From assembly GCA_022820485.1 (NCBI GenBank), contig JAJEFJ010000068.1, positions 57,291-121,290 on the forward strand: 64,000 nucleotides of DNA. Direction: 5' to 3'. The notes under the pieces were generated by a model. The model did no database searches. It worked only from the letters and a program-made list of their open reading frames with translations, and had not been told where the DNA came from. Numbering within the stretch: position 1 is the stretch's first letter; every line of letters starts with the position of its first letter. The translations under genes were made by a program, and so were the position numbers. Source of the stretch: Candidatus Latescibacterota bacterium (GTDB taxonomy: Bacteria; Latescibacterota; UBA2968; UBA8231). Positions 5,596-10,026 of this stretch are shown here, one piece after another.

Positions 5596-6909
5596 GTGAA
5601 CCAACCCAAATCTATCGCCCCGGCCACGGGCAAACTCGGCGTCCTAATTCCCGGCATGGGCGCTGTGGCCACCACAGTTATCGCCGGCGTCGAAGCCATC
5701 AAAGCCGGCATCGGCCAGCCCATCGGCTCGCTGACCCAGATGAGTACCATCCGCTTGGGCAAGCGCACCGAGGGACGCTCGCCGCTCATCAAGGACTTCG
5801 TGCCTTTGGCCGACATCGACAGCCTCGTCTTCGGCGGCTGGGACGTCTTTCCAGAGGACGCCTATGACTCGGCCATCCACGCCGGCGTCTTGGACCAAAG
5901 GCTGCTCGACCAGATCGCGGACCCGCTCAAGACCGTCAAGCCGATGCCCGCGGTTTTCGACCGCAACTACGTGCGCCGCCTCGAAGGCTCCAACGTCAAA
6001 AGTGCCAAGAGCAAGTGGGATGCCGTACTGGAAGTGCGCGAAGACATCCAGCGCTTCAAGGCCGACAACGGCGTCGAGCGGCTAGTGATGATTTGGTGCG
6101 GCAGCACGGAAATTTTCATGGAACACCACGAAGTACACGACGAGATCGAGAGCCTCGAAAAAGCCATCCAAGAAAACCACCCGGCCATTCCTCCAAGCAT
6201 GATCTACGCGTACGCCGCGCTGCAGGAAGGCGTACCTTTCCTAAACGGCGCGCCGAACTTGACTGTAGATGTCCCGGCTATGGTCGAATTGGCGCGGCAA
6301 AAGGGCGTGCCCATCGGCGGCAAGGACTTCAAGACCGGTCAGACCCTGATGAAGACCCTGCTAGCCCCGGGTCTCAAGGCGCGGATGCTCGGCGTGCAAG
6401 GCTGGTTTTCGACCAACATCTTGGGCAATCGCGACGGCGAGGTGCTCGACGACCCCGATTCGTTCAAGACCAAGGAAGTCAGCAAGCTCGACGTGCTGGA
6501 GTTCATCTTGCAGCCCAACCTCTATCCCGAACTCTACGGCGATATTTACCACAAGGTGCGGATCAACTACTATCCGCCGCGCGGCGACGAGAAAGAGGGT
6601 TGGGACAACATCGACATCTTCGGCTGGATGGGCATGCCCATGCAGATCAAGGTCGATTTCCTCTGCCGCGATTCGATTCTCGCCGCGCCGCTGGTCTTGG
6701 ACTTGGTGCTGTTTGCCGACTTGGCGCAGCGGGCGCAGATGGGGGGGATTCAAGAGTGGCTGTCGTTTTACTTCAAAAGCCCGATGACCGCGCCCGACCT
6801 CTATCCCGAGCACGACCTCTTCATCCAGCTAATGAAGCTCAAGAACACGCTGCGCTTCTTGCAGGGCGAGGATCTAATTACCCACTTGGGTCACGAGTAC
6901 TACGACTAG
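5596..6909 (+). CDS. ino1: Inositol-3-phosphate synthase (GTG start)
   Basis: LGVLIPGMGAVATTVIAGV nucleotide-binding, VPIGGKDFKTGQTLMKTLLAP, GWFSTNILGNRDG motifs; AAAGGAG-type RBS. Confidence 0.92.
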   Translation: MNQPKSIAPATGKLGVLIPGMGAVATTVIAGVEAIKAGIGQPIGSLTQMSTIRLGKRTEGRSPLIKDFVPLADIDSLVFGGWDVFPEDAYDSAIHAGVLDQRLLDQIADPLKTVKPMPAVFDRNYVRRLEGSNVKSAKSKWDAVLEVREDIQRFKADNGVERLVMIWCGSTEIFMEHHEVHDEIESLEKAIQENHPAIPPSMIYAYAALQEGVPFLNGAPNLTVDVPAMVELARQKGVPIGGKDFKTGQTLMKTLLAPGLKARMLGVQGWFSTNILGNRDGEVLDDPDSFKTKEVSKLDVLEFILQPNLYPELYGDIYHKVRINYYPPRGDEKEGWDNIDIFGWMGMPMQIKVDFLCRDSILAAPLVLDLVLFADLAQRAQMGGIQEWLSFYFKSPMTAPDLYPEHDLFIQLMKLKNTLRFLQGEDLITHLGHEYYD

Positions 6910-6938
6910 GTGCTTGGGCTACAATCAGTGGGTTGACT

Positions 6939-7937
6939 ATGGATGCACTCGTATTTGAGGAAATGCTATCAGAGCTATGTCAGCGCCTAACATCCGAGGC
7001 GCAACAAGGTGCGACTTATGAGGGAGCCAGCGACTTCGAGGATAGGGTTAGGCTTGAACTTGCATCGATGCCCCAACTAGAGGCCGTGTCAGTAGATTTC
7101 TCTCCCCATCCTCACCAATTCCCGGATATCATACTCGGTACGTACGGCATAGAAGTGAAGTTTACGAAAGGCGATAGCTGGCGAAGCGTCGCCAATAGCG
7201 TCTTTGAAAGCACTCGTAATCCTTCGGTGACGAGCATCTATGTGGTGTTCGGGAAACTTGGCGGCCAACCAGAGGTGAAGTGGGAAAAGTACGATGAGTG
7301 CGTCATCCATGTCCGCACATCTCACGTACCGCGTTTCGAGATCGAAATAGGTAGTGACCGATCTCTGTTCGCTACAATGGGGATCTCGTATGCCGAGTTC
7401 CGTGCGCTTTCGACCGAAGATCGGATGATTCAAATTCGCAAGTATGCGCGAAGTCGGCTGCGTCTTGGCGAGCGACTATGGTGGCTAGAAGATCGACCTG
7501 ATTCAGCACACTCCTTGCCCATCCAAGTCCGTCTATACATGGATCTGACTCAAGACGAGAAGAGACAGCTAAGGGCTGAGGCAGCGCTGCTGTGTCCACA
7601 GATCGTTAAACCGGCACGTTCCAAGAAAAAGTATAATGATGCAGCACTCTATTTGCTGACCTACCACGGTGTGCTGTGCTCACAGGCAAGAGACCTGTTC
7701 TCGGCAGGTAGCGTCGCTCTTAAGAGTGACTCCAAGCGAGGCGGCAATTACTTGCTGCGTGCCCTAAAAGACATCGAAGGCGAGATGCGGGTTGCGGCCG
7801 CCCGTATCGAACCGGCTTTGTTCAAAGAATACTGGGGATTTGTCGTTGCGCCTGAGCAGAGAATTTGCAAATGGCTAGAGCTAGCCGATGGCTATGCTCA
7901 GGATTGGATTCCATCGAAAGAATTATTCAGGGCCTGA
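6939..7937 (+). CDS. Type II restriction endonuclease, PD-(D/E)XK fold
   Basis: True ORF start at ATG 6939 inside the 6015..7937 frame; FPDIILGTYGIEVKFTKGDSWRSVANSVFE contains PD-x(n)-EVK; convergent with and overlapping a C5 MTase gene. Confidence 0.82.
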   Translation: MDALVFEEMLSELCQRLTSEAQQGATYEGASDFEDRVRLELASMPQLEAVSVDFSPHPHQFPDIILGTYGIEVKFTKGDSWRSVANSVFESTRNPSVTSIYVVFGKLGGQPEVKWEKYDECVIHVRTSHVPRFEIEIGSDRSLFATMGISYAEFRALSTEDRMIQIRKYARSRLRLGERLWWLEDRPDSAHSLPIQVRLYMDLTQDEKRQLRAEAALLCPQIVKPARSKKKYNDAALYLLTYHGVLCSQARDLFSAGSVALKSDSKRGGNYLLRALKDIEGEMRVAAARIEPALFKEYWGFVVAPEQRICKWLELADGYAQDWIPSKELFRA

Positions 7938-9160
7938 TCTGTTTGGGCGACATGCTTGCTAGGGCTTCGTTGGAAGCACCTGAGCACACTACATGCGACG
8001 TGCCACGCGAATACAGGGGGCACCGCATTGCCCACCTGTCGCTCGGTTTCCCTGAGACCTGACTGGAAGACAAAACTATCGGGGAACGATTGTATCCGCG
8101 CAGCCTCCCTCATGGAAATACGTCTCGGCAGCGAATAATGGAACTGAATATTCCCGTGACACTCAGCGCGAATCGTGTGGCCCGGTCTGTCGGCAGTAAG
8201 CCTACGATTTCCCTGCTCTGGGCTAGGATTCGCCCGACTCCATATGTGGTTCAAGTCGCGATTCTCTTGGACGGTTTCCAGATCACCAATTGCTTCCTCG
8301 GCGGTTATCCACTCGGAGGAATTCCGTTCGGGTTCTGGCGGCGTGAAAGGGTTCACCTCGCTAGAGGTACCGACGATGATGACTCTTTCGCGCATCTGAG
8401 GTACGCCATAGTCAGCCACCCGGTACAATTTGTAACCGACTGCGTAGCCCAGACTGCCGAAGTCAGAGAGTACTTGGGCTAGCGCTTCTCGATTGTCCCC
8501 TATGAGGAGGCCCTTGACGTTCTCCGCGACGAAAACCTTTGGCCTAGTTCGCTTTACTCCCTCCACCATTGCCCGATAAAGACCTGTCCGGGGGCCATTA
8601 ATGCCAGCCCTTTTGCCGTTAATGGAAATATCTTGGCAGGGAAATCCACCAATCAGCACATCTGCTTCATCCGGCAGTTCATCAATAAAATCCCATACAT
8701 CGCCACACGCGATGTCGTGACCCAAGTTGTGTGTGTAGGTCTTGCAGGCGGCTCTGTTGTTGTCGTTGGACCAGATTATCGAAAATGGAAGCTGTGGGTA
8801 GCTCCGGCCCATGAACTCAAAGCCACCAGTGAAACCAAGATCCATCCCTCCACAACCTGAGAACATAGATACTACAGTGAGAGATTTCTTCAGACTAAGC
8901 TGAGGCACTCGGTCAAGAAGATGAGAGCCACGTCTAGGAATTTGCTCTAGATCAGGTGCGGTTTTGTACTGTGCACCTGCATCACGACTGTTGTAATTGA
9001 AGAGAGAAAGTTGGCGTCTTTCTGCACAATATTCCGCTGCTGACCTGATGAACCAATCCTTGAGAGTACTACCAGATAGTGCGAGAGCCGAATATAGCTC
9101 TCGCTTCTGTTCTGGATCGATCTCGATCACTATTCTTCCAGAGGATGTTGGATTTGCCAT
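7898..9160 (-). CDS. DNA (cytosine-5-)-methyltransferase with N-terminal RHH-like extension
   Basis: VVSMFSGCGGMDLGF, GGFPCQDIS, AENVKGLL, RVADYGVPQMRERVIIVG, EAARIQSFPD, QVGNAVPP motifs; residues ~8-50 (GRIVIEIDPEQKRELYSALALSGSTLKDWFIRSAAEYC) resemble ribbon-helix-helix DNA-binding segments. Confidence 0.96.
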   Translation of the reverse strand: MANPTSSGRIVIEIDPEQKRELYSALALSGSTLKDWFIRSAAEYCAERRQLSLFNYNSRDAGAQYKTAPDLEQIPRRGSHLLDRVPQLSLKKSLTVVSMFSGCGGMDLGFTGGFEFMGRSYPQLPFSIIWSNDNNRAACKTYTHNLGHDIACGDVWDFIDELPDEADVLIGGFPCQDISINGKRAGINGPRTGLYRAMVEGVKRTRPKVFVAENVKGLLIGDNREALAQVLSDFGSLGYAVGYKLYRVADYGVPQMRERVIIVGTSSEVNPFTPPEPERNSSEWITAEEAIGDLETVQENRDLNHIWSRANPSPEQGNRRLTADRPGHTIRAECHGNIQFHYSLPRRISMREAARIQSFPDSFVFQSGLRETERQVGNAVPPVFAWHVACSVLRCFQRSPSKHVAQTDQALNNSFDGIQS

Positions 9161-9195
9161 AGGTCCATATTAGTAAGGTAACATTACCTGCGCAA
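9158..9195 (-). promoter_or_regulatory. Predicted MTase promoter with embedded palindromic operator
   Basis: Minus strand: TTGCGC (9195-9190) - 17 nt - TAATAT (9172-9167); spacer contains AGGTAA-TG-TTACCT (9189-9176); ATG 6 nt after -10. Confidence 0.6.
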
Positions 9196-9258
9196 GTTAA
9201 ATTTACGCCTATGTCGTGGTTTCTCAAATTAGGGATGCGAGAAAGGCTAGGACTAGCC

Positions 9259-10026
9259 TTACCAGAGCGTGTACCCGCCATCGACGACCAAGTCGTGGCC
9301 AGTCGCGTAAGCAGAGGCGTCCGAAGCGAGGAAGACCACGGCACCCTGATAGTCGGCTGGGACGCCTAGACGGCCCATCGGCGTGTTGGCGAGCCAAGCG
9401 TTTTTCATGTCGTCTTCGGCGTGGGCGGTCATGGGGGTGAGCGTGTGGCCGGGGCTGATGGAATTGACGCGGACGCCGCGCGCGGCCCACTCTGCGGCGC
9501 ACACTCTGGTTAGCTGGTAGGCACCCGCCTTGGCGGCGTTGTAGTGGCCGTGCAGTTGCGGGCGGTTGACGGTATGGGACGAGATCGAGACGACGTTGAT
9601 GATCGAGCCGGAGCCTTGCTCTAGCATGGCGCGGCCCTCGGCCTGACAGCAGAGAAAAACGGCCTTGAGGTCGAGGTCGAGCACCCGGTCCCAGTCGGCC
9701 TCGCTGATGTCCTCGATGGGACCGCGCAAGGCAATGCCAGCGCTATTGACGCCGATGTCTAGCTGACCCCAAGCGGCGAGGACGGTATCGACCATATTTT
9801 CGACTTGGTCCTTGGCAGTGACATCTGTAGCGATAGCTAGCGTCCGGCGACCAAGGTTTTCAATCCGCGCACAGGTATCAGCAGCGCCAGCGGCGTCGAT
9901 ATCGGCAATGGCCACATCCGCACCGGCCTCGGCGAGGGCGACGGCGAGGGCCTGCCCAATGCCAGAGCCGCCGCCGGTGACCAATGCCTTGCGGTCGAGG
10001 AGGGAGAAGCGGTCGAGGATGCCCAT
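9259..10026 (-). CDS. SDR family oxidoreductase
   Basis: ALVTGGGSGIGQALA, NSAGIA, YNAAKAGAYQLTR, SISPGHTLTPM motifs. Confidence 0.93.
   Translation of the reverse strand: MGILDRFSLLDRKALVTGGGSGIGQALAVALAEAGADVAIADIDAAGAADTCARIENLGRRTLAIATDVTAKDQVENMVDTVLAAWGQLDIGVNSAGIALRGPIEDISEADWDRVLDLDLKAVFLCCQAEGRAMLEQGSGSIINVVSISSHTVNRPQLHGHYNAAKAGAYQLTRVCAAEWAARGVRVNSISPGHTLTPMTAHAEDDMKNAWLANTPMGRLGVPADYQGAVVFLASDASAYATGHDLVVDGGYTLW

Follow-up and report, generated by a model that had tools for sequence, protein, structure and literature searches.

The 64,000-nucleotide stretch of Candidatus Latescibacterota DNA analysed here (the window) contains a gene for a C5 DNA methyltransferase (MTase) which, judged by comparison with its homologues, is most likely a fusion of methyltransferase and repressor of the M.SsoII/M.EcoRII kind, with a ribbon-helix-helix (RHH) domain replacing the helix-turn-helix (HTH) domain and controlling only its own gene. 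Repression of the MTase gene by this RHH domain, acting at an operator in the promoter spacer, is considered quite probable. The comparison on which this reading is based covers the type of the N-terminal domain, the conservation of the predicted operator, the convergent gene arrangement and the lack of the motif at the start of the restriction endonuclease (REase) gene, apart from a GTCAC in the window.

The MTase gene (positions 7898–9160, minus strand, 420 amino acids) was assigned by PF00145 (E 1.4e-65), TIGR00675 and the PADLOC model MTase_II. The catalytic domain defined by PF00145 begins at residue 95 and is preceded by about 90 residues. Convergent with the MTase gene lies the gene of a type II REase (6939–7937, plus strand, 332 amino acids; PADLOC REase_II, E 3e-123), and the two genes share 40 bp at their 3' ends (7898–7937). 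The REase carries the motif PD(62–63)..EVK(72–74), of which PD and E-K are invariant across nine homologues, and it is assigned to the PD-(D/E)XK enzymes; its AlphaFold2 model, although of low confidence, displays an EcoRV/Hjc-like fold and matches EcoRV and Hjc. By gene content the pair is a predicted type II restriction-modification (R-M) cassette, and a C5 MTase and a PADLOC REase_II co-occur in most of the homologous loci. An open reading frame for a small HTH controller (C protein) was found neither at 6909–6939 nor beside the MTase gene in the window. The nearest gene upstream of the MTase (9259–10026) is 98 nt away and runs in the same direction.

The cassette also occurs in another genome of this genus (G042, locus L094), where its chromosomal position and the adjacent gene are the same as in the window. 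Here the front three quarters of the REase gene are gone, whereas the C-terminal part of the MTase, which extends as far as the end of the contig, shows 96% identity; restriction seems to be the first function of the cassette to decay. In the other genomes of the genus that were examined, no trace of the cassette was detected at that chromosomal place. At two loci with an RHH domain (L004, G067:C172, and L040, G068:C26) the REase genes look damaged (an in-frame TAG; a truncated open frame of 280 codons) and the MTases are intact. Relatives of the REase were absent from the viral contigs of IMG/VR, with only distant ones in phage records, and a profile search of IMG/VR with the MTase returned one close relative on a viral contig (L103).

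The RHH domain spans residues 7–45 of the MTase (SGRIVIEIDPEQKRELYSALALSGSTLKDWFIRSAAEYC; 9026–9142, minus strand). Across seven loci these residues are conserved, whereas the linker behind them (residues 46–92) varies and can not be aligned; because of this contrast they are regarded as a domain. Its layout, an extended strand (residues 9–15), a helix (16–29) and a further helix from residue 33 onward, presents the pattern of the RHH superfamily, which is a strand-helix-helix unit of about 45 residues with alternating hydrophobic residues in the strand and a glycine-containing turn. Pfam searches with the RHH domains of the window type yielded ParD and TacA1 (E 0.004–0.013, below the curated cut-offs), and RelB and ParD ranked first in a profile search of the PDB (E about 0.3). 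An AlphaFold model of the single chain shows the extended segment and helices 16–29 and 33–55 with a mean pLDDT of 74. The top Foldseek matches of this model are nearly all RHH proteins (TacA1, AtaR, TacA3-DNA, MazE6, Arc, AmrZ and ParD), with E-values that, for so short a model, never fall below 0.7. The alignment pattern, Pfam, the PDB profile search and AlphaFold/Foldseek thus all bear out the ribbon-helix-helix that had been proposed in an earlier note on this DNA, and at the level of the fold class the predicted N-terminal RHH is established, the Pfam and Foldseek scores being individually weak. Proteins of the RHH superfamily are obligate dimers and bind DNA through a two-stranded sheet. 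The N-terminus of the MTase would accordingly be expected to dimerise and to contact DNA; however, the acidic residue E13 occupies a position expected to face the DNA.

Re-reading of the sequence upstream of the MTase confirmed the layout described in that note. On the minus strand, a -35-like TTGCGC (9195–9190), the 14-nt sequence AGGTAATGTTACCT (9189–9176), TAC, a -10-like TAATAT (9172–9167), GGACCT and the ATG at 9160 follow each other. The TTGCGC is invariant in all loci with the window type of RHH, and the TAATAT, 6 nt in front of the start codon, is conserved in position and weakly in sequence. The palindrome AGGTAA-TG-TTACCT (9176–9189) lies in the spacer, but instead of filling it completely, as had been claimed, it occupies 14 of the 17 bases. 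The sequence AGGTAANNTTACCT occurs a single time in the 6.26-Mb genome and, with up to two mismatches, once in the window against 0.53 expected. Perfect inverted repeats with arms of at least 6 nt and a loop of up to 10 nt appear in 5.8% of shuffles of the 36 nt; since about 6% of shuffles contain one as good, the palindrome alone is not beyond chance and was rejected as evidence of an operator by itself. A single-strand hairpin gave no signal at this site (z -0.07).

Comparison of the upstream regions points to a different conserved unit. The window type of RHH is found in eight loci from Latescibacterota, Sumerlaeota and Verrucomicrobiota (the window, L002, L003, L004, L096, L184, L020 and L052), of which only about five to six are independent; L020 and L052 are a near-identical pair. 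In all eight, TTGCGC-N7-GTNAC precedes the start codon, compared to none of 70 homologues without that RHH; GTNAC anywhere within 100 nt is found in 15 of these 70. At the same offset, GTNAC is present in six non-redundant loci and in 0 of 200,000 shuffles. The element reads AGGTAATGTTACCTTAC in the window, AGTTTACGTGACTTACG in L003, GTTTTACGTCACTTGGG in L004, GTATCGTGTGACATGGG in L096, AAGTTACGTCACCTAGA in L184 and TTGCTATGTAACATGGA in L020, and TTGCGC stands 35–36 nt before the start codon in six loci and 39 nt before it in L020/L052. Each promoter of this type holds one to three copies of GTNAC; L003, L004 and L096 have a second GTTAC covering the -10 region. Within the 35-nt block, identity is 46–71% among the divergent loci and 80% to the closest one, whereas the DNA farther upstream does not exceed 40% under the most favourable shift, except in the near-identical pair. 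The window and L002 have 27 identical nt in the block, more than the 82% identity of their genes leads one to expect (P about 0.005).

The exact palindrome, whose conservation upstream of orthologues the note had proposed to check, recurs only in L002, an 84%-identical relative. Since the combination with GTNAC is found in eight of eight loci and the exact palindrome in the window and L002 only, the GTNAC core, which in the window is the GTTAC at 9178–9182 (minus strand, 7 bases after TTGCGC), is the candidate operator, and the palindrome is, by this comparison, one local form of the conserved element. The idea of an operator-like element in the promoter spacer therefore holds with respect to conservation, but the conserved unit is TTGCGC-N7-GTNAC and not the exact palindrome. 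The predicted operator overlaps the MTase promoter, as indicated by conservation only. A wider regulon was also considered; the motif occurs nine times in the own genome against eleven times for a reversed control pattern, and because of this count no regulon is indicated.

A leaderless or nearly leaderless MTase transcript, starting at or next to the ATG, is plausible. The distance between the -10-like hexamer and the start codon is fixed at 6–7 nt in six of the eight loci, and a Shine-Dalgarno sequence is absent in all eight, both of which are consistent with such a start. However, the promoter hexamers are weak (TTGCGC matches the -35 consensus at three of six positions, and several of the -10-like hexamers are poor across loci), and an automatic promoter scan detected another weak match just upstream, at 9227–9200. 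Read-through into the MTase gene from the gene 98 nt upstream on the same strand is possible.

Convergent gene order is shared by all 16 RHH loci, in 15 of which the domain is fused and in one separate. Among the 58 other loci with a located REase gene, 56 are co-directional and two, one of them L103, are convergent. On the MTase tree only three to four changes are needed for either trait, RHH or gene order. Because it rests on so few changes, the association remains a pattern; as an independent statistical result it was rejected, the pair test being without power. With regard to the control of the R-M system as a whole, the MTase gene is apparently targeted directly, as had been assumed, but the start region of the REase gene, at the far end of the cassette, is without the motif. 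A common operator at the REase promoter was dismissed for the window type of RHH, where it is absent save for one GTCAC at -49 in the window. Since the REase gene has its own start region lacking the motif, only the MTase gene appears to be directly controlled. In four enterobacterial loci (L026, L072, L038 and L040) a conserved AACTTGTSAC, resembling half of the MTase operator, is located about 65 nt upstream of the REase gene, and the enterobacterial RHH possibly acts there as well.

The same MTase family carries other N-terminal domains. A second type of RHH, with different strand residues, was found in Enterobacterales (Photorhabdus, Limnobaculum, Intestinirhabdus, E. coli and a K. pneumoniae plasmid), including 14 of 5,426 complete E. 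coli genomes, and matches the Pfam family HicB with E-values of 5.7e-5 to 1.1e-4, above the cut-off. It is accompanied by a conserved palindrome of its own, TTGTGCRCACA-like and reading CTGTACACACA in E. coli. This palindrome overlaps a -35 hexamer resembling TTGTGC, 17 nt ahead of TATCAT or TATTAT. The E. coli copies (L082, L083, L086 and L087) and the copy on K. pneumoniae plasmid pINF177.2 (L084) neighbour vsr, a MobQ/MobA-type relaxase and Kiwa-type genes. In the E. coli copies the REase gene is annotated as hypothetical, and strain SCU-387 of E. coli encodes the RHH part in a short open reading frame of its own, annotated as a HicB antitoxin. At L024 (335–586) the RHH is encoded by a stand-alone frame, out of frame with the MTase and ending just before its ATG. 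This frame is preceded by TTGCGC-N17-TACAAT, and the locus would represent an unfused version of the same control.

A large co-directional clade possesses an N-terminal HTH_17 domain instead (E 0.0034, below the cut-off), and here the palindrome CACGN4CGTG directly adjoins a good -10 hexamer (TATAAT). Of 18 loci typed as HTH, 14 have this palindrome, and so do two more HTH loci (altogether L019, L022, L029, L031, L043, L045, L048, L055, L059, L060, L061, L063, L064, L066, L068 and L095, with L029 and L043 assigned to HTH by reading their N-termini); it is absent from every locus without HTH. The most compelling reason to think that the N-terminal domain recognises the promoter element is that the element varies together with the domain, whereas the catalytic part remains the same. 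The chances are about even that a single R-M family has exchanged its autorepressor repeatedly (the modules being two RHH types, the HTH_17 type and the stand-alone RHH), each module having its own class of operator, with RHH tied to convergent and HTH to co-directional genes, and that at least one of the RHH types is leaderless with the spacer as operator.

The GTNAC core could also have a reader other than the RHH domain. GTNAC, or the GCGC within TTGCGC, might be the recognition site of the MTase itself, so that methylation of the promoter sets expression as in CfrBI/AhdI-type control. Every promoter of the window RHH type offers one to three such GTNAC sites, GTSAC is also found upstream of the REase gene in the enterobacterial relatives, and EcoRII combines a fused repressor with the methylation state (PMC12707154). 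However, the motif is missing from homologues that share these catalytic and target-recognition regions but have other N-termini (0 of 70, GTNAC as such in 15 of 70), and the promoter motif tracks the N-terminal and not the catalytic domain; control by methylation is considered improbable.

Conservation limited to the GTNAC-bearing block, and only in loci with the window type of RHH, likewise bears on the proposal that the RHH is a mere dimerisation or general DNA-anchoring module and that the block is conserved as the cassette promoter. RHH domains do serve in non-regulatory roles (DndE, TraY and NikA), and the mobile cassette has this promoter at its outer edge. Yet the convergent locus L103, which has no RHH, keeps TTGCGC and a -10-like hexamer 17 nt on, with GTNAC missing at that place, and at L024 the RHH is a protein by itself; a purely anchoring role is thus unlikely. 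That an ordinary MTase with an unremarkable N-terminal extension stands beside a fortuitous palindrome would agree with the frequency of such repeats in shuffles (about 6%) and with the exact form recurring in one relative only, but conservation in several phyla together with the evidence for an RHH fold renders pure chance extremely improbable.

In the preferred reading, repression of the MTase by its own N-terminus, residues from about 7 to 45 would form the RHH, dimerise and read the GTNAC-containing operator in the -35/-10 spacer, joined in several relatives by the second GTTAC over the -10 region. Accumulated MTase would then block RNA polymerase at its own promoter, which would set a ceiling on modification and might prevent incoming DNA from becoming over-protected. 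On entry into a new cell, the promoter of the MTase would be unoccupied and methylation would come first, while the convergent REase gene, with its own promoter, would stay outside the loop. Within this scheme we infer dimerisation, binding, repression by exclusion of the polymerase, and a transcription start at or next to the ATG.

Fused MTase-repressors with an HTH domain are established for M.SsoII, Ecl18kI and EcoRII (PMC3978073, PMC12707154, PMC3874152). Like M.SsoII, M.Ecl18kI and M.EcoRII, the window MTase is a C5 enzyme with a predicted N-terminal DNA-binding region of 50–70 residues and a variable or flexible linker, and its regulatory site, predicted by conservation, overlaps its own promoter. 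In contrast to these HTH enzymes, its extension is an RHH and its start is possibly leaderless. In SsoII and Ecl18kI, moreover, the M and R genes are divergent with overlapping promoters that compete, whereas the RHH loci are convergent (16 of 16), and because of this orientation neither overlapping M and R promoters nor promoter competition would occur in the window cassette. With the antitoxins ParD, TacA, AtaR and RelB and with Arc/CopG the window RHH shares the fold class, the predicted logic of self-regulation and short half-sites inside the promoter; unlike these antitoxins, it is fused to an enzyme that neutralises its partner indirectly, by DNA modification and not by toxin binding. 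RptR, a small dedicated repressor at type I R-M islands that uses short direct repeats overlapping the promoter, is comparable, but is a separate protein of a type I system and is not described there as an RHH (PMC12255303). Feedback by a self-encoded DNA-binding protein is also a feature of C-protein-controlled type II systems, from which the window cassette differs by lacking a separate controller gene and by predicted control of M and not of a C-R operon. In the open-access literature covered, no description of an RHH-fused methyltransferase was found.

The principle of the MTase-repressor would hereby be extended from HTH to an antitoxin-type RHH fold. The family furthermore forms a natural set of variants that combine one enzyme pair with different DNA-binding heads and matching predicted operators. 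Owing to this set, the balance between modification and restriction, the exchange of regulatory modules and a possible constraint of gene order on the regulator become directly testable, and the copies in E. coli and Klebsiella make the RHH-MTase family workable in strains used in the laboratory.
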